This document shows positions 37,366-59,860 of a DNA stretch of 64,000 bases, one piece after another. A program made the translations under genes and the position numbers. The stretch covers positions 3,555,001 through 3,619,000 of the forward strand of contig NZ_CP087999.1 of NCBI RefSeq assembly GCF_021044625.1. The letters are read 5' to 3'. How positions within the stretch are numbered: the stretch's first letter is position 1; each line of letters opens with the position of its first letter. Under the pieces are notes generated by a model that did no database searches, was not told the DNA's origin, and worked only from the letters and a program-made list of their open reading frames with translations. This DNA comes from Geomonas sp. RF6 (lineage in GTDB: Bacteria > Desulfobacterota > Desulfuromonadia > Geobacterales > Geobacteraceae).

Positions 37366-38019
37366 CTATTTCTTTTCCAGAAGCTCCGGATAAGGCCAGC
37401 CGGCTACACCCTTTTCCAGGATGTGGAGCCGGTCCTCGCCGATTCCCTGCTCCAGCAGGTACTGGTAGGCGTTCCTGGAGCCCACCTCGCCGCGGGGGCA
37501 GACGATGACCACGTCAGCTTTGGTGGTGGCTACTATGTCGAGTGCTGGGTCTAGGCGCTTTTTTTCCTCTTCAGTCTTGGCGGGGTAGGCGTTCGTTTCA
37601 ATGGAGCCCTTGAAGTGGTGCTGGGCATACTCCTCGGGGGATTGCAGGTCCACTATGTGCACCTCCCTCCCGCTATTCAGCCACCCCTTAAAGCTGGCCG
37701 GCTCCAGGTAATTGGCTGCATCAGCTGCTGTTTCCCCCCCTTGCAACAGGACCCCTACCAGCCCTCTGGTGAAGTCGTTGATTACCGAGTAGTGTACTTC
37801 CACGCCGTCGCGGGTGCCGCGGATGATGCCCTTGTTCTTAAGCAGTGTGAGGTGCTGGGAGACCGTAGCCTGCGGAAGCCCCAGGCATTCCCAGATATGT
37901 TTGACGTTGCAGGCCTGGTAACAGAGGCCGGTAACGATCTTCAGCCTGATGGGGTGCCCGAGGACCTTCAGGATTTCCGCTTCCTCAGTAAGTTCAATGC
38001 TCTTGTCGAATTCCAACAT
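37366..38019 (-). CDS. ArsR-type repressor fused to a rhodanese domain
   Basis: 217 residues. Residues 1-95 are an ArsR winged helix (ILKVLGHPIRLKIVTGL, LPQATVSQHLTLLKNKGII). It has a Cys pair (C32-x-x-x-x-x-x-x-x-x-x-C type spacing in YQACNVKHIWECL) that could sense metals, thiols or sulfane sulfur. Residues about 115-215 form a rhodanese with the catalytic Cys in VIVCPRGEVGSRNAY and the flanking LEKGVAGWPYPE. Such fusions are known and suggest direct coupling of persulfide chemistry to repression. No obvious sulfur target gene lies adjacent on the minus strand, so its regulon is unknown. Confidence 0.9.
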   Translation of the reverse strand: MLEFDKSIELTEEAEILKVLGHPIRLKIVTGLCYQACNVKHIWECLGLPQATVSQHLTLLKNKGIIRGTRDGVEVHYSVINDFTRGLVGVLLQGGETAADAANYLEPASFKGWLNSGREVHIVDLQSPEEYAQHHFKGSIETNAYPAKTEEEKKRLDPALDIVATTKADVVIVCPRGEVGSRNAYQYLLEQGIGEDRLHILEKGVAGWPYPELLEKK

Positions 38020-38495: not shown

Positions 38496-39311
38496 TCACT
38501 TCCACCGGTTGAGCATCAGAATGACGGGCAGGATGACTCGCGCCCCCTCTACTACGGCATTGCGGGGGCTGCCAGCTACCTTCACCTCTATGCCGGTACG
38601 CCCGGCAAGGTAATCCCTCACGCCGGGAATGAGCGCTCCGCCTCCGGTGAGGCAGATGCCGCTCTCTATCACTTCACACCCCACATGGTCCGGCAGGCTC
38701 CTCAGAAAAAGATCTACTGTGTCGGCGATCTCTGCCAGAACGGGGAACTCTGCGACGGCAACGGCTGCAGCGTCCGAATCGCAGCCCGCAACGGCGACGC
38801 CGCTGGAGCGGCCGGAACACCGTGATTGACGCGCGCGCATGCGGGCGCACCCGATCCTTACCGCAGCGGTGGCATATACCTTACTGGCACGTATCACCGC
38901 GCAGTCGGTGACTCCTTCACCGATGTCGATTACCATCTGCGCATAGGGGGAGGAAACGTCGACGCCTGCTCCGATGGCGGCGGCAAGCGGCTCGGGAATT
39001 ACCGATACCGAGGCGGCTCCGGCTCCCATTATCGACTCCGTCAGCAACTGCCGTTCCTCACTGCTCGCGTCGCTCGGCGCACAGGCAAGCACCCACGGCT
39101 TTATCACGCCGAAAGAACGTGCCTTTTCCAATAGAGGCTTCAGTATTTGTGACATTGCCTCGGCGTTGACCACAACCCCCCCGCTCAGTGCCGGCTCCGA
39201 CCCGAGGCGCGAAGGCTTCTCGATGGCAGGGGACCCCCCTATGGCAATGCGTGTCGTTGCGGTGCCGACATCGAGCGCTACGTGCTGTCGCCACTGTTCC
39301 GAGTGCAGCAT
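38496..39311 (-). CDS. Minimal MreB-like actin-fold ATPase
   Basis: 271 residues; MreB is ~340. The actin-superfamily nucleotide motifs are all present: phosphate-1 (VALDVGTATTRIAI), phosphate-2 (VIDIGEGVTDCAVI) preceded by the MreB-like PEPLAAAIGAGVDV, and the adenosine motif (CLTGGGALIPGVRDYL). The N-terminal membrane-binding helix is missing. About 60 residues of subdomain II between AVRIGC and PVLAEIAD are missing too, replaced by a short Ser/Ala/Cys-rich linker. The start has a clear GGAGG. It lies 74 bp after the sigma-54 activator gene in the same direction. Filament formation cannot be assumed; a regulatory ATPase or a decaying copy are alternatives. Confidence 0.8.
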   Translation of the reverse strand: MLHSEQWRQHVALDVGTATTRIAIGGSPAIEKPSRLGSEPALSGGVVVNAEAMSQILKPLLEKARSFGVIKPWVLACAPSDASSEERQLLTESIMGAGAASVSVIPEPLAAAIGAGVDVSSPYAQMVIDIGEGVTDCAVIRASKVYATAAVRIGCARMRARQSRCSGRSSGVAVAGCDSDAAAVAVAEFPVLAEIADTVDLFLRSLPDHVGCEVIESGICLTGGGALIPGVRDYLAGRTGIEVKVAGSPRNAVVEGARVILPVILMLNRWK

Positions 39312-39385
39312 ATATATCTATCCTCCCTGGAGCTCATCCGTCGGCTGCAAAGGTGGTGCGGTCACTCACCCGGCCTCGCCAGACT

Positions 39386-42196
39386 TCATATGCGCACCGT
39401 CTTGTAGAGAAAATTCTTGAACTTGAAGAACTTCCGGCGCTCTGCGGGATCTCCCTCTATGTCCCCCGTCGTCGCTTTCAGGTGCCTGGCAATCTGCGGC
39501 ATAGTGCGCCCGGCTTCCAACCGGGACCTTTCGATTACCAGCCCGACCACGTCCCGCGAGATCCGGTTTTTCGAGTACGGCTCATACACCGCCTCCCAGA
39601 AATCCATTCCCGACCTGATCTGCGCCACGATGTCATCGGCCACCCGGTTTTGCAGCCGGGTATGCGAGTTTTCCTGCTGCTCGTTTGCTGCCTGCCCGAT
39701 TGCGCGGCGGATGTCCTCCTCGGTGATCACCTCTCCCGAGCGGAAGAAAAGAGCTCGCAGCAGGATACTGCGCAGCTCGCGGACGTTTCCCTCGTACCAG
39801 TGGTTCACCAGGGCACCCTTGGCACCTTCGCTCAGCACCGGCGTCTCCTGCTCCGGATCGTCTTTTCCGCGGTAGGTGCGGTGCAGCTTGCCGAGAAAGT
39901 GTACGGCGAGGTCGGGGATGTCCTCCTTGCGCTCGCTCAGTGGCGGTATCGTCACCGATAGCTCGGAAAGTCTCTGATAGAGGTCCTCCCGGAATCGCCC
40001 GGCCTTGATCTCTTCCTGCAGGTTCTTGTTCGTTGCCGCCACCAGCAGCACCCGGCCGTAACGCTCCGCGCTCTCCCCGAGCCGTATGAAGCCGCCGTTG
40101 TCGAGAAAGCGCAGCAACTGGACCTGTGTCTTCGGATCGGCATCGCCGATCTCGTCCAGAAAGACGACTCCCCCCTGCGCTTCCTCGAGAATACCCCTGC
40201 GGTCGCTGTAGGCCCCCGTGAACGCCCCCTTCTTGTGGCCGAAGAGTTCCGAGTAGGTAAGCTCCCCGCTGTAGGCGGCGATGTTCATCTTTCGGACCGG
40301 AAGCTCGACGCCGGCATTCACCCGCTCACGGTACATCTCCGTAAGCTTGTTGTAGAGGTTGTTGAAAAAGAACTCCTTCCCCGACCCGGTCGGCCCGAGG
40401 ACGAGGACGGAGGGGAGGCCGATAGTCGCCTCCTGCCAGGCGGCGGTTCTCCAGAAGAGGATCCGGTTCAGAAGAGGGGCGGAAACGGTGTTGATGAAAT
40501 CGACCACCTCCTGCGCCTTCCTGCTGTTGCCGATGATGTTCCCCAGACGATAGGAGGAGACGGTCGGGTCCTTGTAGGCGACGTCACTGGTCAGGCGCGC
40601 GACCTGGCTTTGCAGGGTCTCGATCTGCTGAATGTCCGCAATATGGCGGGAAGTGAGGCTCTCGATGATCTGCAGGATGCGTTTGTGCTCCTCGGAAAAA
40701 TATCCTTCTCGCAGCGAATTCAGGCAGATTACCCCGAGCACCATGTCGTCGCAGATGATGGGAACCGCGATCTCGCTCCTGATGAGTTCGCTGGTGGTGT
40801 AGTGGAAGCCCTCTCCCGTGATCTCCGCCTTTATGTCCGAGATGATCTTCGGATCCTTTGACCAGGCGACGTATCCGGTCAGACTCCTCTGCGCAACCGG
40901 GAGCTCATGCCCCCCGACGCGGAACGCGGGGATCTTTTTCTTCACCCACTCCTTGTTCTTCGCCCCGACGATCGTCCCGTTCTCCTCTTCAACCACCAGC
41001 CACTTCTCTCCGTCCCGCTCCTGCACCATGGCGATGCTCCCGGTGTCGGCGCCGATCAGCTTCGTTGCCTTGGAGAGCACCTTCTCGAGGAAGGTCGGGA
41101 GATTGGACTTTCGCTCCCTGAGAAGATCGGTGATCTCGGCGAAGACCCGAACTTCCAGGTGCTCGTCGCCGATCTCGCGAATGACGCGCTCCACCATCTC
41201 CGCGTGAGTCTGGAGGATACCGGCCTCGAACTCGGTAAAGCTGCTGTTCTCCCTGGAGTAGTAATTGACCAGGCAGATGACCTTCCTGGTGTCCGGGTCG
41301 TAGCGGGGGACCATGTACAGCGAGCGGAGAAACATCTTCTCCGTGAGCGCCCGTTTCTGCAGCACCTGCTGGGTGAGGTTGGGGATGAAAACCGGCTCCA
41401 GCAGGGTGTCGTTATTGATGTAGCCGTCGTCCCCGATGTACTGGGAGACAAGGGACCTCCCCCTCCCCAGCTTGATCGCCCCGAGGTCGTCGTAGAGGGC
41501 CTTCAGCCGGGGGTCGGCGGAGTAGCTGGCAAGGATCTCCATCCGTTTCCTGCCATGACTTCCGATGGTGGGAACGAGCACGGAGGCAAGGGAAAGACGA
41601 TCGATGAGCCGCACCGCCGACTTCACCATGAACGCGGCAGCCTCCCTTTTCTTGTACTCCTCCACACGGCGGGTCAAAAGGATCTGCTGATTGTACTTCC
41701 GTGCCTCATCTACCTTGTCGGCGATGGAAACGAGGAAACGAAGGAGCGCCTCGGAATTGGGGTCGGTCGCAAAAGCGCCCGGGGCTTCCTCGTCGAGGCA
41801 GACCACACCGATCGACCTCCCCCTGTTGACGAGTGGGTATTGGCAGGTCGAGCCGATGGCGCAGTTCCGGTCCAGCCGCATGTCCAGTGAAAGCCCGGAG
41901 CTCGCCGTATCGGAGACCATCCGCGGCGCCTGCGTGGCAAAGACCGTGGAGACGAGTGAGCTCCTGGAGACGATCGGGAAGGTTGTTCCCATGATCTCTT
42001 CCCCATGCGGACCGGCGACATAGCAGCAGGAGAGCGCGCCCCCCGTGACGTCCTCGAGGTAGATCCTGATTCTGCCGCGACCGGAAATTGCCTGAATACC
42101 TTCGGCGGCGGTGAAGACGATCTCTTCCAGGTTTTCCTTGCCAAACCTCGCGATCTTTTTCTGAAGCTGGTGCAGCGTCGCCTCGGTCGTGGTCAT
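39386..42196 (-). CDS. Multi-GAF sigma-54-dependent transcriptional activator
   Basis: 936 residues. GAF-like sensor regions at about 15-180 and 415-570, with a third, weaker one between. The AAA+ core has Walker A GPTGSGKE near 600, the sigma-54-contacting GAFTGA loop near 657, and Walker B VVFLDEIGD near 680. The sensor/arginine region is FREDLYQRLSELSVTIPPLSERKEDIP. The C-terminus (MPQIARHLKATTGDIEG, ending FKNFLYKTVRI) is an atypical HTH rather than a textbook Fis domain. No receiver domain, so ligand control by GAF is likely. ATG 42196 overlaps the upstream gene's stop (ATGA). Target promoters are unknown; autoregulation of this operon is one possibility. Confidence 0.92.
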   Translation of the reverse strand: MTTTEATLHQLQKKIARFGKENLEEIVFTAAEGIQAISGRGRIRIYLEDVTGGALSCCYVAGPHGEEIMGTTFPIVSRSSLVSTVFATQAPRMVSDTASSGLSLDMRLDRNCAIGSTCQYPLVNRGRSIGVVCLDEEAPGAFATDPNSEALLRFLVSIADKVDEARKYNQQILLTRRVEEYKKREAAAFMVKSAVRLIDRLSLASVLVPTIGSHGRKRMEILASYSADPRLKALYDDLGAIKLGRGRSLVSQYIGDDGYINNDTLLEPVFIPNLTQQVLQKRALTEKMFLRSLYMVPRYDPDTRKVICLVNYYSRENSSFTEFEAGILQTHAEMVERVIREIGDEHLEVRVFAEITDLLRERKSNLPTFLEKVLSKATKLIGADTGSIAMVQERDGEKWLVVEEENGTIVGAKNKEWVKKKIPAFRVGGHELPVAQRSLTGYVAWSKDPKIISDIKAEITGEGFHYTTSELIRSEIAVPIICDDMVLGVICLNSLREGYFSEEHKRILQIIESLTSRHIADIQQIETLQSQVARLTSDVAYKDPTVSSYRLGNIIGNSRKAQEVVDFINTVSAPLLNRILFWRTAAWQEATIGLPSVLVLGPTGSGKEFFFNNLYNKLTEMYRERVNAGVELPVRKMNIAAYSGELTYSELFGHKKGAFTGAYSDRRGILEEAQGGVVFLDEIGDADPKTQVQLLRFLDNGGFIRLGESAERYGRVLLVAATNKNLQEEIKAGRFREDLYQRLSELSVTIPPLSERKEDIPDLAVHFLGKLHRTYRGKDDPEQETPVLSEGAKGALVNHWYEGNVRELRSILLRALFFRSGEVITEEDIRRAIGQAANEQQENSHTRLQNRVADDIVAQIRSGMDFWEAVYEPYSKNRISRDVVGLVIERSRLEAGRTMPQIARHLKATTGDIEGDPAERRKFFKFKNFLYKTVRI

Positions 42197-42579
42197 ACAG
42201 ATCCTCTGTCCCGCTCCGCGGCGTGCACGAAAGCGACCCGCAGGGGTGCCTCGTGCACCTTCCTCGCAGCGACAAGGGTGAAGTTCACCTGAGACAGGTG
42301 CTGGACCAGATGGAGAGGCTCGCCGGTCACCGAATACCCCTGGAAGACGACGAGGTTCGCCGGAGCAAACCTGACCTCTGCTGCGTGGAGTTCCCCCTGT
42401 GCCCCGCATGGCGCGACACGGATTGCCACCTCATGTTCCTGATCGAGAGAAGCCTGAAAGTTCTCGATCGATGACTGCAGTGCACGGCGGACCTGCCCCG
42501 CTTCGTACAGTGCGGTGTTCAACTGGCCGAAGCGGTGGCTTTCCGGGGTGAGGGGAGTTGAAGCATGGTACTCAGTCAT
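42193..42579 (-). CDS. Small protein of unknown function (possibly DUF6173-like)
   Basis: 128 residues. The pattern FGQLNTALYEAGQVRRALQSSIENF, then FAPANLVVFQGYSVTGEPLHLVQHLSQVNFTLVAAR, reminds me of DUF6173 proteins, which end in an L(I/V)QH-x-SQ-x-NF motif. I am not certain of the match. No signal peptide or membrane segment. First gene of a minus-strand operon: its stop overlaps the start of the sigma-54 activator by 4 bp. It may be a partner or sensor subunit of that regulator (inference). The start at 42579 is chosen over the longer reading at 42603. Confidence 0.65.
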   Translation of the reverse strand: MTEYHASTPLTPESHRFGQLNTALYEAGQVRRALQSSIENFQASLDQEHEVAIRVAPCGAQGELHAAEVRFAPANLVVFQGYSVTGEPLHLVQHLSQVNFTLVAARKVHEAPLRVAFVHAAERDRGSV

Positions 42580-42974
42580 CGATGACCCTCCTACATAGTT
42601 CACGAGATTGCCGGCTAAGTGGATTGTGGCTCAGCGCTGTGTACCGTGTCAACATGGTGAACGTGAAAGAAGTCTCAGTTTGCCCCTCCTGCGACGCTTC
42701 ATTTGAAAAGCCTGCATTTTCGCGATCTTTGACGGGTGGTAAGGGGAGGGTGCGGGCACCACGACGTACCGCGTGGAGGGAGGTGTGTGCACAGCGTACA
42801 CAGTCTCTGAATAGCTTTCAAACTCAGAAAGTGGGTTCGGGTGGGCCTTTGAAAAAAAAATTTACCTATCCGGAAATTCTGGATATACCCGCTTCGCAAA
42901 TCCGAGGAGAAGCCCCCTCTGTGCGGTGCCTCCCCGGGAAGAGTGTGTTACCTCAATACTCGACGGAGTTGATC
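42580..42974. other. Divergent intergenic region upstream of nfnA
   Basis: No gene supported. Contains a GTGTGTGCACAGCGTACAC near-palindrome (about 42783-42802). An A9 tract, TTTACC and a GGAAATTCTGG stretch at about 42892 faintly recall family A repeats. Must hold the promoters of both neighbouring operons; I could not pin them down. Confidence 0.4.
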
Positions 42975-43826
42975 ATGCACAAGATCCTTTTGAAGGAGAT
43001 GCTGGCGGAGCGCACCTGGCACATGCGTCTTCACGCACCGCTGGTGGCGCGCAAGTGCGAGCCGGGACAGTTTCTCATGCTGCGCATCCGCGAAAACGGG
43101 GAGCGCATCCCCCTTACCATCGCCGACTGGGACAGAAACGCCGGCACCATCGACATCTACTTCCAGGAGCTGGGCGCCACGACGCACCTGCTGGCGACCC
43201 TTTCGGTTGGGGACTCCGTAAGGGACGTGGTCGGTCCGCTCGGAAATCCTTCCGAGATAGAAAAAGTGCCCGGCACCTTTGTCATGGTCGGAGGGGGATT
43301 CGGCATTGCGGCCGGATACCCTGTGGCGCGCGGGTTCAAGGAGGCCGGCAACCGCGTGGTTGCGGTGCTGGGCGCGAGGACGAAGGATCTTCTCATCTGT
43401 GAAGAGATGCTGAAAGCGGTATGCGACGAGGTACTGGTGGCCACCAACGACGGCAGCTACGGAACACAGGGGGTCGTCTCCGATGTGCTGCGCACCCTTC
43501 TGGAGCGCGGGGAGGATATCAGCCTCGTTTTCCCAGTGGGGCCCCCGATCATGATGAAGATCATCTCGGGGATGACGCGCCCGCTGGGCATAAAGACGGT
43601 CGTTTCCCTCAACTCCGTCATGGTGGACGGCACCGGCATGTGCGGCTCCTGCAGGGTGACGGTCGGGGGAAAGACCCGGTTCGTCTGCTCGGAGGGGATC
43701 GACTTCGACGGCCACGAGGTGGATTGGGACGAGATGATGTCCCGCCAGAAGATGTACGGGACGCAGGAGTCGGAGGCCCTCAGCAATTATCACCACAACG
43801 GGGCGTGCATGGGAGGGAGTCTATGA
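42975..43826 (+). CDS. NfnA-like ferredoxin:NADP oxidoreductase alpha subunit
   Basis: 283 residues: FAD domain of the ferredoxin-reductase fold (ERIPLTIADWDRNAGTID), NAD(P) domain (FVMVGGGFGIAAGYPVARGF), and a C-terminal [2Fe-2S] site (GMCGSCRVTVGGKTRFVC). The layout matches NfnA/SudB and dihydroorotate-dehydrogenase electron-transfer subunits. The immediate downstream GltA-like gene (4-bp overlap) makes an NfnAB-type complex the best reading: reversible, bifurcating electron transfer between NADH, ferredoxin and NADPH. Start at 42975 has GGAG upstream; the open frame extends further 5' without family support. Confidence 0.85.
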   Translation: MHKILLKEMLAERTWHMRLHAPLVARKCEPGQFLMLRIRENGERIPLTIADWDRNAGTIDIYFQELGATTHLLATLSVGDSVRDVVGPLGNPSEIEKVPGTFVMVGGGFGIAAGYPVARGFKEAGNRVVAVLGARTKDLLICEEMLKAVCDEVLVATNDGSYGTQGVVSDVLRTLLERGEDISLVFPVGPPIMMKIISGMTRPLGIKTVVSLNSVMVDGTGMCGSCRVTVGGKTRFVCSEGIDFDGHEVDWDEMMSRQKMYGTQESEALSNYHHNGACMGGSL

Positions 43827-45250
43827 GAGAGCTCACCGTCGCCGAACGCTGTGCCATCCCGAGGCACTCGATGCCCCACCAGGACCCCCGTGAGCGGGTC
43901 GGCAACTTCGACGAAGTGGCACTCGGGTGGGACGCTGAAACCGCGGTAAAAGAGGCGCAGCGCTGCCTTCTGTGCCGGAAGCCGCAGTGCGTCGCGAGCT
44001 GCCCGGCGGAAATAGACATTCCCGGCTTCATCGCCGAAACGGCGCGTGGGAACTTCCGCGAGGCCTCAACGATTCTGAGGGAGAGCTCCGCCCTCCCCGC
44101 GGTCTGCGGGCGCGTCTGCCCCCAGGAAACGCAGTGCGAGCAGCTCTGCGTGCTGGGGAAAAAACACGAGCCCGTGGCGATAGGGCGCCTGGAGCGCTTC
44201 GTCAGCGACTACGCTCTGCGCTCGGATGTCCCGCTTCCGGCCCTCCCCCCCTCCACCGGTAAAAAGGTCGCCGTGGTGGGCGCGGGCCCCGCAGGCATTA
44301 CCGTCGCGGGCGATCTCGTAAAGCTCGGGCACGAGGTTACCCTCTTCGAGGCGCTGCACATGCCGGGGGGAGTCCTCGTGTACGGCATCCCGGAATTCCG
44401 GCTCCCGAAGGAGATCGTGCGGCAGGAAGTCGATCTGATCCGCAGTCTCGGGGTGAGACTCGTGACCAACTTCGTGGTCGGGCGCACCGCGACGGTGGAC
44501 GAGCTCCTCGAGGAACACGATGCCGTCTTTCTCGGGAACGGGGCCGGAGCCCCGTCCTTTCTCGGCATTCCCGGGGAGAACCTGAACGGGGTCTACTCCG
44601 CCAGCGAGTACCTGACACGGTGCAACCTCATGAGGGCGAACGACTTCCCGCGCAATGCCACACCGGTGGCCGGCGGGAGAAAGGTGGTTGTCCTCGGGGG
44701 AGGCAACGTCGCCATGGACGCCGTGAGGGTGGCCCTGCGGCTGGGGGCGGACGAGGCGTCGATACTGTACCGCAGAAGCCGCAACGAGCTCCCCGCCCGT
44801 CTCGAGGAGATCGAGAACGCCGAGGAGGAGGGGGTAAAGTTCTCTTTCCTGGCGAACCCGGTCCGCATCGTCGGCGGTGAGCACAACTGTGTCACCGGCG
44901 TGGAGTGCGTGCGCATGGAGCTGGGAGAGCCTGATTCCTCCGGTCGCCGCCGCCCCATACCGGTAGCAGGGTCCGAGTTCGTCATCGAGGCGGACACCGT
45001 TGTCGTGGCGATCGGGCAGAACGCGAACCCTATCGTGGCCTCCACTGCTACCGGCGTGGAGACCGACAGGCGCGGCTACTTCAAGGCCGACGCGGAAGGA
45101 AGAACAACAAAACCCGGCGTCTTTGCCGGGGGGGACATAGTTACCGGAGCCGCAACGGTGATCCTTGCCATAGGGGCGGGGAAAAAGGCGGCGCGGGCCA
45201 TGCACGAGTATCTTCTGGACTCGCGCTGGCCTGACTTTGCCGAAGCATGA
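43823..45250 (+). CDS. NfnB / glutamate synthase small-subunit-like NADPH oxidoreductase
   Basis: 475 residues. Two [4Fe-4S]-type Cys clusters at the N-terminus (CLLCRKPQCVASCPAEIDIPGF; CGRVCPQETQCEQLC), then the FAD motif VVGAGPAGITVAGDL, the NADPH motif VVVLGGGNVAMDAVRVAL and the C-terminal FAD site GVFAGGDIVTGAATVILA. It matches GltD/GltA-like proteins; paired with the NfnA-like gene it is most likely NfnB. No glutamate synthase large subunit is adjacent. gdhA follows 67 bp later, so NADPH made here could feed glutamate synthesis (inference). Confidence 0.88.
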   Translation: MRELTVAERCAIPRHSMPHQDPRERVGNFDEVALGWDAETAVKEAQRCLLCRKPQCVASCPAEIDIPGFIAETARGNFREASTILRESSALPAVCGRVCPQETQCEQLCVLGKKHEPVAIGRLERFVSDYALRSDVPLPALPPSTGKKVAVVGAGPAGITVAGDLVKLGHEVTLFEALHMPGGVLVYGIPEFRLPKEIVRQEVDLIRSLGVRLVTNFVVGRTATVDELLEEHDAVFLGNGAGAPSFLGIPGENLNGVYSASEYLTRCNLMRANDFPRNATPVAGGRKVVVLGGGNVAMDAVRVALRLGADEASILYRRSRNELPARLEEIENAEEEGVKFSFLANPVRIVGGEHNCVTGVECVRMELGEPDSSGRRRPIPVAGSEFVIEADTVVVAIGQNANPIVASTATGVETDRRGYFKADAEGRTTKPGVFAGGDIVTGAATVILAIGAGKKAARAMHEYLLDSRWPDFAEA

Positions 45251-45278: not shown

Positions 45279-46658
<1,380 letters not shown>

Positions 46659-46812: not shown

Positions 46813-49416
46813 ATGCACGGCTATCAGACTGCTTTCACCACAGGGTTGCCCGGACTGGACGGCGCCCTGAAGGGGATCCTCGCGGGGGACAACATCGTGT
46901 GGCAGGTGGATGCCATCGAGGATTACCAGGCGCTGGTGACCCCGTTTGTCGAAGCCGGAGTCGGCAGCGGCAGGAAGGTGGTGTACTTCCGCTTCGCCAG
47001 CCACCCCCCGTTGGTGCAGGGGGAGAGCGGGGTGATGAGGGTGGACCTCGATGCGAACGAGGGGTTCGAGACCTTCATCTCTCTCGTTCACGAGACGCTG
47101 GAAAATGTCGGCAGAGGCGCGCTCTACGTCTTTGACTCACTTTCGGAACTTGCCGCCGACTGGTATTCCGACCAGATGCTCGGCAACTTTTTCATGCTCA
47201 CCTGTCCCTACCTCTTCGACCTCGAGACGGTGGCGTACTTCGCCCTCTTCCGGAACCATCACTCATCCCTCGCGCTGAACCCGATCGTGGAGACGACCCA
47301 GCTCTTTCTCGACGTCTTCCGGCACCGCGACACCCGCTACATCTACCCGATGAAGGTCCACCTGCGCTATTCGCCGACCATGAACATGCTGCACGAGTGG
47401 AGGGACGAGGAGTTCCGCCCGGTAACCGCGAGCTCCGTCATTAGTTCGATCCTTACCTCCACGACGTGGTCGGGACTGAATGCCGACATGCGTCCGGGGA
47501 TCTGGCAGCGCGCGTTCGAGGAGGCGGAGGAATTTCTGGACGAGGTCAAAAGGGGGAGGGTCTCACCGGAAAAGGAAGAGGAGATGTTCAGGCGCCTCTC
47601 CAGGATGATGATATCCCGTGACCCGGTCATGCTGAAGCTCATCTCGCGGTACCTGAGCCTGGAGGACCTGATAGAGATCCGCCACAGGATGATCGGGACC
47701 GGGCTGGTGGGGGGGAAGACAGTCGGCATGCTCCTGGCGCGGCGGATTCTGCAGAAGCATTCCGAGCGTCTGGCACGGCTGCTGGAAGCGCATGATTCTT
47801 TCTACATCGGCTCGGACGTCTTCTACACCTTCCTCGTTTGCAACGGCGCGTGGTGGGTGCGGGAGAAGCAGAGAAATCCCGAGACATTCCTCGAGGGCTC
47901 CGAACTGGCGCGGCAGCGGATCCTTACCGGGAAGTTCCCGGAATACATGGTGAAGCAGTTCGAGCAGATGCTCGACTACTTTGGGCAGGCACCGATCATC
48001 GTGCGCTCCAGCTCCCTTCTCGAGGACAACTTCGGCAATCCCTTCGCCGGGAAGTACGAAACCATTTTTTGCCCCAATCAGGGGCCACGGGAACGGAGGC
48101 TGGAGGATCTTATCTCGGCGATGCGCACCATCTACGCCAGCAGCATGAGCGAGAAGGCGCTGCGCTACAGACGGGAGAAAGGGCTCCTGGAGCAGGACGA
48201 GCAGATGGCCCTGCTGGTGATGCGCGTCTCTGGAGCGGCCCACGGCAGATATTTCTATCCCCACGCCGCCGGCGTCGCCTTCTCCTACAACCCGTATGTG
48301 TGGAACGAAAACATCGACCCTGCGGCAGGAGTGATGAGGCTTGTCTTCGGGCTCGGAACCCGGGCGGTCGATCGCTCCGACGATGATTACACCCGCGTGG
48401 TCGCGCTGAACGCCCCGGCGCAACGTCCTGAAACCAATTTCGAGGAGGTGCGGCAGTATGCCCAAAGGAGGGTCGATTTCCTCGATCTCGACGCCAACCG
48501 CCTCGTTTCCGGCCACTTCCTCGATGTCATTGCGGTGAGCCCCGACGTTCCGGTGCGCCTTTTTGCCTCCACCGACGACGGCGCGAACTGGAGCATGGAG
48601 AATGCGAACCGCCCGACCTACGTCCTCACATTCGACAAGCTCCTGGAAACGACGGGCTTTGTCGAGGACATCAGGGAGATACTCCGGGTCCTGCACGAAG
48701 CGTACGACCACGCAATCGACGTGGAATTCACCCTCAACTTCCTGGAGTACGACGACTACCGCATTCACGTGGTCCAGTGCCGACCCCTCCCCGTAAAGGG
48801 GATCGATACGACTGCGCCTGTTCCCATGGATGCTCCGGAGGAGAATCGTGTCATCTCCGCTTGCGGGGCTGTCATCGGCCACAGCCGTCACCTCAGGATG
48901 GACAGATTCATCTACGTGGTGCCGGAGGTGTACTCCTCGATGACGATGCAGGAACGGTACGAGGTGGCAAGGCTGATCGGCCGCCTGAACCAGACGATCT
49001 CTCCGCAGCAGGAAAACGTCATGTTGATGGGGCCGGGACGTTGGGGCACCAGTTGTCCCTCGCTGGGGGTTCCGGTGACCTTTTCGGATATCAGCCGCAG
49101 CGCCGTCCTGTGCGAGATCGTGGCGATGCGGGAGCACCTTGCCCCCGACGTCTCGCTCGGCACGCACTTTCTGAACGAGCTGATCGAAATGGATATGCTC
49201 TATCTGGCGCTCTTTCCGCGCAGAGGGGGGAACTTCCTGCGTGAGGAGTTTTTCAAGGAGTTGCCGAACCGGCTGCTGGAATACGTCCCGGGCGAGGACC
49301 GCTGGGCTGGAGCAGTACGGGTTGTGCACGCCGCCGACATCGCCGGAGGGGGGAATGCCTTGTACCTCTCAGCTGATGCTTTGAAACAGAAGGTGATCTG
49401 CTACCGCACGGCGTGA
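46813..49416 (+). CDS. Degenerate KaiC-like domain fused to a PEP-synthase-type ATP-grasp
   Basis: 867 residues. Residues about 1-210 have the KaiC/RadA opening (TGLPGLDGALKGILAGD) and a Walker-B-like ALYVFDSLSEL. The P-loop is gone: QVDAIEDYQALV stands where GxxGxGKT should be. Residues about 380-690 carry the pyruvate/PEP-dikinase ATP-binding signature (IIVRSSSLLEDNFGNPFAGKYETIF) and its closing VVQCRPLP. The last ~170 residues contain MGPGRWGTSCPSLGVPVTFSDIS and GTHFLNEL blocks. There is no phosphohistidine swivel (GGxxxH) or PEP TIM-barrel domain, so it is not PEP synthase. GAGGGAG precedes the ATG. It may phosphorylate or ligate an unknown partner. Confidence 0.85.
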   Translation: MHGYQTAFTTGLPGLDGALKGILAGDNIVWQVDAIEDYQALVTPFVEAGVGSGRKVVYFRFASHPPLVQGESGVMRVDLDANEGFETFISLVHETLENVGRGALYVFDSLSELAADWYSDQMLGNFFMLTCPYLFDLETVAYFALFRNHHSSLALNPIVETTQLFLDVFRHRDTRYIYPMKVHLRYSPTMNMLHEWRDEEFRPVTASSVISSILTSTTWSGLNADMRPGIWQRAFEEAEEFLDEVKRGRVSPEKEEEMFRRLSRMMISRDPVMLKLISRYLSLEDLIEIRHRMIGTGLVGGKTVGMLLARRILQKHSERLARLLEAHDSFYIGSDVFYTFLVCNGAWWVREKQRNPETFLEGSELARQRILTGKFPEYMVKQFEQMLDYFGQAPIIVRSSSLLEDNFGNPFAGKYETIFCPNQGPRERRLEDLISAMRTIYASSMSEKALRYRREKGLLEQDEQMALLVMRVSGAAHGRYFYPHAAGVAFSYNPYVWNENIDPAAGVMRLVFGLGTRAVDRSDDDYTRVVALNAPAQRPETNFEEVRQYAQRRVDFLDLDANRLVSGHFLDVIAVSPDVPVRLFASTDDGANWSMENANRPTYVLTFDKLLETTGFVEDIREILRVLHEAYDHAIDVEFTLNFLEYDDYRIHVVQCRPLPVKGIDTTAPVPMDAPEENRVISACGAVIGHSRHLRMDRFIYVVPEVYSSMTMQERYEVARLIGRLNQTISPQQENVMLMGPGRWGTSCPSLGVPVTFSDISRSAVLCEIVAMREHLAPDVSLGTHFLNELIEMDMLYLALFPRRGGNFLREEFFKELPNRLLEYVPGEDRWAGAVRVVHAADIAGGGNALYLSADALKQKVICYRTA

Positions 49417-57504: not shown

Positions 57505-58737
57505 GACCCTGGGGTCAGGCTTTGCATTTGGGGATTTGAACGCGACTTAACCAGGGTCAGGCTTTGCATTTGGTGATTTGGGAGCAGATCTCTGCTTTCT
57601 CCGTGAGAACGGTACTGTCGGCCTTAGTCTTAGCCTGCGTTTCTAGTCGCTGTGCTGCAGCGCTGAGAGTCGAGACATCCCTTCCTGTGAAGCGTGCAAG
57701 TTCCGTCAGCGTGCACGACGGCAGGTCCTGAACAATCCACGCCGCCATTCCCCTCGCACGCGAAGAGACCCTGTTCTTCCCTCGCTGCGCAAGCACGCCA
57801 GGCTCAATGTTGAGCCGAGTGCAGACTGCGGAGATGACATCTCCAACCGAGATTTTTGGGGACTCGCCAATGCCTGCTTGCCTCGGCAGGTGCCGAACGA
57901 ACTCCTTCCCCGCAAGGATTCTACGGTCGTCATTGCCCTCCCCATGGAAGTCGCTCCTTCTTCCCTCACTGGTGCCGGCTTCCACAAACCGCTTGTACGC
58001 CTCAGTTGCTACCTCTCGGTCTTTTGAAAATTGACTGAGCACGTGATCCGTAGACAGCCACGGAATTACCGCCTCCTGCGAATAGGCCGCATGGCCACTC
58101 CAACGGTACTCCGAAGGCGAGGGCGCTATTCCCGCTCGTACGGGATTGAGGTGGACGTAACGTACAAGTTCAAGAAGATAGCAATCTGCATCCACGAGAA
58201 TAGCCTTGTATCTGCCCTGGAAGATATGGCCGACGCGTGTGTGGCGCCAATTAACCCATTGGGTATAGCGAAACGAGAGGTTATGGATGATGCGGGAGAG
58301 GGTGATGCGTCCTACCTGCATGACCAGATGGAGGTGATTGGGCATGAGGCAGAATGCGTGAATTGTGTGCTGAAAACGATCAATTCCCTCCTGCAGGAGG
58401 AGGCACAACCTTAATCGGTCCTCCTCCGCAAAAAAAATATCTGCTCTGCAATTGCCGCGGAGGATGACGTGATAAAATGCGCCGGGGTAATGGATGCGAG
58501 CTTTGCGGGCCATAAAGGATCCATTGGGTCCAGCTGTAGTTAGCGTTGATGTTACGAAACTGTAACTCCGGAATCCAGATATGCAAAGCCTCCCGCCCCG
58601 ACTCCTCCGAGATCAAATGCCCAAATGCAAGGCCTGACCCCAGCAGAGCCATAAAACGCGAAGCCTGACCCCACCGATGCTGATGGCCCCAATCATGTGA
58701 CCCGCATCTCAAATGCCCAAATGCAAAGCCTGACCCC
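57504..58737 (-). mobile_element. RAYT unit: REP-type transposase between inverted pairs of its repeat
   Basis: Two direct copies of GGGTCAGGCTTTGCATTTGG plus K-GATTTG lie at 57511-57538 and 57554-57580, the second covering the end of the transposase gene. Two copies in the opposite orientation lie at 58614-58641 and 58710-58737, with a short piece at 58658-58673. The left copy is preceded by TGACCC, giving TGACCCTGGGGTCA. Confidence 0.85.
57557..58513 (-). CDS. REP-associated tyrosine transposase (RAYT)
   Basis: 318 residues. N-terminal Y1/HUH nuclease domain: MARKARIHYPGAFYHVILRG opening, HLHLV metal-binding His pair near residue 58-62 (MPNHLHLVMQ), and the catalytic-Tyr helix in RYVHLNPVRAGI. 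The C-terminal ~130 residues contain a DnaA/HTH-like segment (SVGDVISAVCTRLNIEPGVLAQRGK, LTELARFTGRDVSTLS) that could bind the repeats. The final residues (SQITKCKA) are encoded by the flanking repeat itself. RAYTs move or maintain REP-like sequences in bacteria; activity here is unproven but the gene looks intact. Confidence 0.92.
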   Translation of the reverse strand: MARKARIHYPGAFYHVILRGNCRADIFFAEEDRLRLCLLLQEGIDRFQHTIHAFCLMPNHLHLVMQVGRITLSRIIHNLSFRYTQWVNWRHTRVGHIFQGRYKAILVDADCYLLELVRYVHLNPVRAGIAPSPSEYRWSGHAAYSQEAVIPWLSTDHVLSQFSKDREVATEAYKRFVEAGTSEGRRSDFHGEGNDDRRILAGKEFVRHLPRQAGIGESPKISVGDVISAVCTRLNIEPGVLAQRGKNRVSSRARGMAAWIVQDLPSCTLTELARFTGRDVSTLSAAAQRLETQAKTKADSTVLTEKAEICSQITKCKA

Positions 58738-58770: not shown

Positions 58771-59860
58771 TTAATTGCACCAGTTGATGTAAAAGCAGGA
58801 CATGACAGGCAAATCTGGTAGTGTGTGAAGCGCGACCAACACATACCCCAGGAGGAGCCCGCCATGTCCCACACGCATCTTACAGAAAATGAGCGATATG
58901 TCATCAGCCATTTGAAGGTGGCGAAATTTAGCCTTCGCGAAATCGGCCGTAGGCTTGGACGCCATCACACAAGCATCATGCGCGAGATTGCGCGCAACGG
59001 CCCGACATACCCCGATGGAGTTTACTGGTACACCTTCACGCATGGCACTGCGCTTAAACGTCGTCACCAGCCCAGGTCTTTCCGGCGGCAGGACAACGCC
59101 GATCTGGTCGCTTACGTTGAAGAGAAATTGATGCTGGATTGGCCACCTGAAGCCATTGCCGCCAGGCTCAAAATGGATTTCCCAATGGACCGGGCGATGC
59201 GCATCAGTCATGAAACCATCTACCGCTGGATTTACCTAGACGCCAGAGAAGGTGGCGAGCTTCACAAGCATCTTCGCCGTCGGAGGCGGAATCGCCGTAG
59301 GCAAACGCGCTACTGCGCAGGACGGCGGTTCATTCCGGGTCGAGTCTCAATTAAGGAGAGGCCGGCAGTAGTTGGTACCAGAGAACGATTTGGGGACTGG
59401 GAAGGCGACACGCTGCACGGTGCGAAAGGCGCAGGAAACCTTGCCACGTACGTTGAGCGCAAGAGCCGCTTTTTACTTGCCGCAAGACTCGCAGACAGAA
59501 GGGCCGCAACCATGACGGATCATAGCGCGAGGTGCTTCAGCCCTCTGCCCGAGATCCTCTGCCAGACAGTAACCGTTGATAACGGTAGTGAGTTTGCGGA
59601 ATTCAAAGATCTGGAAACTAAGACAGGGCTTACCGTGTATTTCGCGGATCCTTATGCGTCTTGGCAGCGTGGCACCAATGAGAACACAAACGGCATCTTG
59701 CGGCACTACTTTCCGAAGGGGTTCGACTTCAGGACCCTATCAGAGGAAGAAATTCAGCAGGTCGTGAAACAGGTCAACGATCGACCACGAAAGTGCCTCG
59801 GCTACCGGACTCCTGCGGAAGTTCTGCGTGCATCATTCGGTGGTGCATTTACAACTTGAA
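58771..59860 (+). mobile_element. IS30-family insertion sequence
   Basis: Left end near TTAATTGCACCAGTTGATG (58771-58789). The right end is the inverted counterpart CATTCGGTGGTGCATTTAC (about 59834-59852), sharing TGCACCA and the following GATG/GAATG. Exact tips and target duplication could not be fixed. It begins 33 bp after the last RAYT repeat. Confidence 0.7.
58864..59859 (+). CDS. IS30-family transposase
   Basis: 331 residues. N-terminal IS30-type HTH (HLTENERYVISHLKVAKFSLREIGRRLGRHHTSIMREI), then a DDE integrase core: first Asp near 180 (FGDWEGDTLHGA), second near 236 (VTVDNGSEFAEF), Glu near 272 (QRGTNENTNG). The C-terminal NDRPRKCLGYRTPAEVL is the family closing motif. Start at 58864 with AGGAGGAG upstream. 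The frame is intact, so the element may be active. Confidence 0.95.
   Translation: MSHTHLTENERYVISHLKVAKFSLREIGRRLGRHHTSIMREIARNGPTYPDGVYWYTFTHGTALKRRHQPRSFRRQDNADLVAYVEEKLMLDWPPEAIAARLKMDFPMDRAMRISHETIYRWIYLDAREGGELHKHLRRRRRNRRRQTRYCAGRRFIPGRVSIKERPAVVGTRERFGDWEGDTLHGAKGAGNLATYVERKSRFLLAARLADRRAATMTDHSARCFSPLPEILCQTVTVDNGSEFAEFKDLETKTGLTVYFADPYASWQRGTNENTNGILRHYFPKGFDFRTLSEEEIQQVVKQVNDRPRKCLGYRTPAEVLRASFGGAFTT

Follow-up and report, generated by a model that had tools for sequence, protein, structure and literature searches.

An additional GPMC-type sigma-54 activator beside a DUF6173 gene and a reduced MreB-like gene in Geomonas sp. RF6

The GPMC system transcriptional regulators (NCBIfam NF038230) are the closest described relatives of the activator studied here. 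Their canonical copies have a GPMC glycosyltransferase (NF038229), a GPMC metallohydrolase (NF038231) and a TIGR04442 gene as neighbours, and a metallohydrolase or TIGR04442 gene lies at most three ORFs from the regulator in 31 of the 39 rows compared. The activator also shares its central and part of its C-terminal region with RtcR (NF038308) and other bEBPs. The actin-like protein encoded next to it has the fold of MreB and Mbl (PF06723); one study on Caulobacter MreB (PMC4051119) reports that polymerisation goes with a movement of subdomain IB towards subdomain IIB. Another short actin-fold protein is EutJ (PDB 3h1q), with about 270 residues. The third protein of the locus belongs to the DUF6173 family (PF19670). 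A search of a single collection of open-access literature returned no description of the GPMC system, of TIGR04442 or of DUF6173. An earlier note on this DNA had held that no described system has this composition, which agrees with the literature search but overlooks the membership of the activator in a named regulator family.

We analysed a window of 64 kb that covers positions 3555001–3619000 of the 5.26-Mb single-contig genome of Geomonas sp. RF6. Three minus-strand genes, encoding the DUF6173 protein, the activator and the MreB-like protein, lie back to back with a plus-strand series of metabolic genes (Table 1). The DUF6173 and activator genes overlap by 4 bp (42193–42196), and a gap of 74 bp (39312–39385) separates the activator gene from the MreB-like gene. 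The gene order, lengths, overlap and spacing first reported are thereby confirmed. All three products exceed their Pfam cut-offs, and inspection by eye finds a Shine-Dalgarno-like stretch 5' of each start.

Table 1. Features of the locus, with coordinates in the 64-kb window
Feature	Coordinates	Strand	Evidence
Reduced MreB-like protein, 271 aa, likely passenger	38496..39311	-	PF06723 134 bits (cut-off 27), AlphaFold model
Sigma-54 activator, 936 aa, paralogue of GPMC system transcriptional regulator	39386..42196	-	NF038230, GAFTGA and Walker motifs, tree
DUF6173 protein, 128 aa, first gene of probable transcription unit	42193..42579	-	PF19670 39.1 bits (cut-off 27)
Possible sigma-70-type promoter TTGACA-N18-CACAAT, upstream of DUF6173	42623..42652	-	weak
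SudB-like FAD/NAD-binding subunit, first divergent gene	42975..43826	+	NF004862 384 bits (cut-off 220)
SudA/GltD-like NADPH-dependent glutamate synthase-type subunit	43814..45250	+	TIGR01316 584 bits (cut-off 472)
NADP-specific glutamate dehydrogenase (GDH)	45318..46658	+	NF006929 762 bits (cut-off 536)
867-aa protein with PPDK_N (ATP-grasp) domain	46813..49416	+	PF01326 160 bits (cut-off 27)

The DUF6173 and activator genes are probably co-transcribed. The gap between the activator and MreB-like genes holds no terminator-like site, the two found on the minus strand falling inside the activator gene, so these two genes may be co-transcribed as well; the whole region contains four such sites, against 3.8 expected. 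The sigma-70-like site before the DUF6173 gene is weak, as it is the one match in 5.1 kb where 1.6 are expected by chance. The next gene, downstream of the MreB-like one, encodes a protein that joins an ArsR-type HTH to a rhodanese domain (window 37366–38019, minus strand). Farther along the window, two ORFs (57557–58513, minus strand, and 58825–59859, plus strand) may encode transposases, which their first residues resemble.

The activator matches NF038230 over nearly its full length, with 1500.2 bits for a cut-off of 1200 (residues 6–936 of 936), and it matches the Sigma54_activat domain (PF00158) with 152 bits. It carries the Walker A motif at residue 601, the GAFTGA loop from residue 657 and the LDE of the DE box at residue 680, and the genome encodes RpoN (TIGR02395, 454 bits, cut-off 277). 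Both the intact GAFTGA loop and the multi-GAF architecture had been recognised before; the GAF domains are two, at residues 22–160 and 366–511. Between them, residues 181–365 (window 41102–41656, minus strand) have no Pfam match at a useful E-value, and residues 191–360 show a mean identity of 86% within the five-member clade described below. No Pfam HTH match was obtained for the C-terminal 91 residues, whose conservation across the family is close to that of the whole protein. The alignment with RtcR covers the AAA+ core and part of the sequence beyond it (activator 596–911, RtcR 206–508), whereas the N-terminal part of the activator matches GAF domains and the score, 235 bits, lies far below the RtcR cut-off of 650. 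RtcR-type models of PADLOC align over a similar stretch. A defence system was considered and set aside: PADLOC assigned RtcR-type models and one other weak match to the activator and nothing to the other three proteins.

A second NF038230 copy is found in the same genome at 2450209–2452974, 1.1 Mb from the window copy. It adjoins a TIGR04442 gene, a GPMC metallohydrolase and a GPMC glycosyltransferase, whereas the window activator is an extra copy that has none of them: no GPMC glycosyltransferase, MBL hydrolase or TIGR04442 gene is present in the 24 kb around it, and the metallohydrolase and TIGR04442 genes are lacking within three ORFs of the regulator in all five members of its clade. This clade was defined in a tree of 39 full-length regulators (fragments shorter than 850 aa left out; quick search, SH-aLRT support only, midpoint root), where the window activator groups with those of genomes G010, G003, G031 and G029 (support 99), nested in the canonical copies of the sister genus g11. 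The canonical copy of the window genome itself groups with genera g6 and g13, and both regulator types are present in G031 and G029. In the trees of the PPDK_N and DUF6173 proteins, the window copies sit by the same lineages, G033 and G010. We infer that the activator was duplicated in the g11 line and then transferred to the window genome.

Comparison of the window activator with the canonical copy of the same genome gives identities of 44% for residues 1–190, 63% for residues 191–360, 64% for residues 361–515, 81% for the AAA+ core and 60% for the last 86 residues, or 63% overall; the canonical copies among themselves share 54, 67, 76, 86 and 62% in the same regions, or 69% overall. A changed sensor joined to a kept DNA-binding domain was considered and is not borne out. 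As in comparisons among canonical copies, the first GAF region is the most divergent part, so these figures do not show an altered input with a kept output, and the C-terminal region, at 60%, is no better conserved than the whole protein, at 63%. No position has one fixed residue throughout the clade and a different one in more than nine-tenths of the canonical copies.

The new surroundings of the activator are partly shared by its clade. In a flank survey that dropped matches with query coverage below 25%, activator identity below 50% or Sud/GDH/PPDK identity below 45%, divergent GDH and PPDK_N genes lie beside the activator in four of the five clade loci, together with SudBA in three of them (window, G031 and G029); the contig of the fifth, G010, starts 690 bp upstream of the DUF6173 gene, too close to show what lies on the divergent side. 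Four of the five activators have a DUF6173 gene no more than 8 kb off. It lies directly upstream in the window and G010, which are sister rows (support 83) and the only two with this adjacent order; in G031 and G029 it comes after the divergent genes, at a distance of about 8 kb. The G003 copy is on a separate contig.

DUF6173 homologues are present in 9 of the 141 genomes of the order, and in five of these carriers (G003, G016, G021, G026 and G033) no activator was found near the gene within the fetched stretch, which counts against a fixed link between the two. Across a 395-genome sample of the phylum, PF19670 exceeds its cut-off in two genomes besides the window genome, the other g11 carriers being absent among the matches. 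The profile found no solved relative of DUF6173 at a useful E-value, and the single-sequence model, with a pLDDT of 37, is too poor to define its fold. The PPDK_N domain of the 867-aa protein spans residues 298–669, preceded by an N-terminal part with no clear Pfam match. This protein occurs in 18 of 138 genomes, ten of them in the same family, including all nine with DUF6173, and its gene mostly adjoins a glutamate dehydrogenase gene in this genome group.

With moderate confidence, we read the locus as a GPMC-type sigma-54 activator that was duplicated and moved, accompanied by DUF6173, back to back with SudBA, NADP-GDH and PPDK_N genes, and most likely derived from the sister-genus lineage, with the MreB-like gene as a likely passenger. 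A DUF6173–activator unit is plausible and, by analogy with what is known of the family, its mechanism may be outlined as follows. The two proteins would be produced together; the GAF domains would respond to a small molecule; RpoN–RNA polymerase would be remodelled by the AAA+ core and its GAFTGA loop; the C-terminal domain would bind DNA sites akin to those of the parent regulator; and DUF6173 may modulate the activator.

A first alternative, which we regard as unlikely, is that the activator directly controls the divergent SudBA–GDH–PPDK_N genes as a nitrogen or NADPH-balance switch, with its GAF domains as sensors of a metabolite such as 2-oxoglutarate. The back-to-back arrangement with GDH–PPDK_N in four of five clade loci is in line with it, as are the nearly identical sets of genomes that carry PPDK_N and DUF6173 within the family. 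The NifA model is also among the better partial profile matches of the activator, and NifA-type GAF domains sense 2-oxoglutarate. However, no sigma-54-type site was found ahead of SudB (window, G031, G029) or of GDH (G003), and GDH–PPDK_N pairs also occur without the activator, as in the second copy of G031 (L160, 17 kb fetched).

A sigma-54 pattern with at most two mismatches matched the 64-kb window 27 times, against 24.5 expected. Within intergenic regions, whether of the window or of the clade loci, neither the pattern nor a home-made score pointed to a convincing -24/-12 site; applied to canonical loci, the score gave scattered matches. The upstream regions of canonical GPMC loci carry the motif AGGCAAGG in 22 of 31 cases. 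It was tried as a binding site of the activator and rejected, since it corresponds to the -35 element of promoters of the sigma-70 type, for example TTGCCT-N17-TATTTT. These TTGCCT-type promoters start 40–63 bp before the GPMC metallohydrolase gene, and canonical GPMC operons appear to carry conserved sigma-70-type promoters (for instance L037, L056 and L068). In some canonical loci the TTGCCT element lies within a dyad, AGGCAAGG...CCTTGCCT. Scanning the window with AGGCAAGG produced four matches, against 5.1 expected.

A second alternative treats the locus as a neighbourhood accident, in which three unrelated minus-strand genes were juxtaposed through transfer and rearrangement. Both the DUF6173 and MreB-like genes are found at other locations, and DUF6173 relatives occur in 13 plasmid records and three phage records (two of them from one phage), in line with this reading. 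The 4-bp overlap of the DUF6173 and activator genes, the same pair in G010 and the proximity of the two genes in G031 and G029 argue against it, and we judge it quite unlikely. The joint function that the earlier note had proposed for the trio finds some support for its first two members, adjacent in G010 and within 8 kb of each other in G031 and G029, but not for the actin-like one. The complete trio was seen in the window genome only, and the MreB-like gene is most likely a passenger with no conserved place as third component.

The MreB-like protein belongs to the MreB_Mbl family, although it falls far short of the cut-offs of the NCBIfam MreB subfamilies, with 127 bits against 293 for NF010539 and 111 against 366 for TIGR00904. 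It keeps the nucleotide-binding motifs, as previously stated, in the form of conserved alignment columns that we take to be the motifs usually named in this family. Alignment with the MreB of the same genome shows that it lacks 30 residues corresponding to MreB 44–73, 36 (6 + 10 + 20) within MreB 197–258, and the first 10; on the usual MreB boundaries, the first two segments are assigned to subdomains IB and IIB. The deletion had been described as about 60 residues of subdomain II, which has to be corrected to 30 in IB and 36 in IIB in addition to the N-terminal ten. Since these residues are lost, canonical filaments are unlikely for this protein.

A structure prediction, which the earlier note had called for, yielded a confident actin core (AlphaFold, pLDDT 89, pTM 0.85) from an alignment of 20 of 24 close relatives, the main weak stretch being residues 168–178, below pLDDT 50. 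Its fold is best matched by structures of MreB, together with two integrative models of Mbl (Z of 27–34 and r.m.s. deviations of 2.1–3.2 over 247–268 residues). EutJ is a partial match and resembles the protein less well than MreB does, by sequence and by fold. A frameshift in the window gene was considered and rejected: the frame is open, the motifs are intact, and the odd stretch coincides with the place where the family varies in length.

Among the matches listed, several relatives from Acidobacteria and Deltaproteobacteria have open frames of 342–368 aa (one Acidobacterium has 319), five g11 genes have 306–316 and four other Geobacteraceae-type genes 277–294, compared with 271 in the window. 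Of 275 relatives, 80 loci were kept. The 24 that are at least 36% identical belong to Geobacterales, Acidobacteria, Desulfobulbaceae, Verrucomicrobia and Myxococcota; identity does not exceed 33% in the remaining 56. Named Geobacteraceae, the family of the window genome, are among the relatives, and within this family a match was found in 24 of 48 genomes. The dN/dS ratio of about 0.16–0.18, with dS near saturation, suggests long-term constraint on the MreB-like gene, a point against the passenger reading.

The flanks of 39 MreB-like loci (15 + 24, at least three of them the same gene) were inspected over up to 9 kb, or less on small contigs, the set of 24 having been filtered at 20% coverage; none has an activator or DUF6173 gene beside it. 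Conversely, in the 40 activator loci of relatives, MreB-like sequences turn up in G031 alone: a decayed copy lies some 5 kb from the activator, and close to it are an Rnk gene and a further MreB-like gene truncated where the contig stops. The failure to co-occur, which the earlier note had named as grounds for abandoning its proposal, is partly borne out. It had also raised the degradation of the gene in relatives: broken copies do exist, in G031 and as a frameshifted second copy in G019, but each of these genomes has an unbroken copy elsewhere. On the whole, the observation made in that note is confirmed and its interpretation partly supported.

A different association recurs in the order. 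Rnk/GreA-type proteins are RNA-polymerase-binding regulators. Of the 26 distinct MreB-like genes of Geobacterales, 14 (two of them broken or truncated) have a gene for such a protein in the same orientation, no more than about 1.5 kb away. The pairs, which are among L077–L104 (for example L089:1501-2810 and L094:1053-2391), occur in either order and once with an intervening gene. In a tally within 3 kb at 15 loci, Rnk is the sole neighbour found in more than two genera, namely in five. Among the loci fetched from outside Geobacterales, no Rnk gene was found beside members of the MreB-like family; nor does one adjoin the window MreB-like gene, the two Rnk-like matches of this genome being far away. 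The same literature collection gave no account of Rnk with MreB.

It is conceivable, if very unlikely in our estimation, that short MreB-like proteins devoid of the IB and IIB surfaces act as a family of ATP-state switches on transcription regulators, often paired in Geobacterales with an Rnk/GreA-type protein, and that a sigma-54 activator captured one of them here. The narrower proposal of a cytoskeletal or ATP-state sensor feeding the activator, with DUF6173 as adaptor, draws on the shared strand, the short terminator-free gap, the high-confidence actin core and the Rnk pairing, but appears highly improbable given that the activator–actin link recurs at none of the 39 MreB-like loci, that the activator loci gave nothing except the decayed copy, and that the extra copies of G031 and G019 are broken. 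Under the passenger reading that we prefer, the mini-actin would work as an ATP-dependent switch, would not assemble into MreB filaments of the canonical kind and would play no constant part in the DUF6173–activator unit.

For this lineage, the locus offers a traceable case of regulator duplication, probable transfer and acquisition of new neighbours, with the parent copy in the same cell. The pairing of the actin-like protein with Rnk is a more interesting lead than the trio itself: if functional, it would tie an actin-type ATPase directly to the control of RNA polymerase. The reduced MreB-like proteins form an uncharacterised and widely scattered family, which the analysis of this locus has brought to view.
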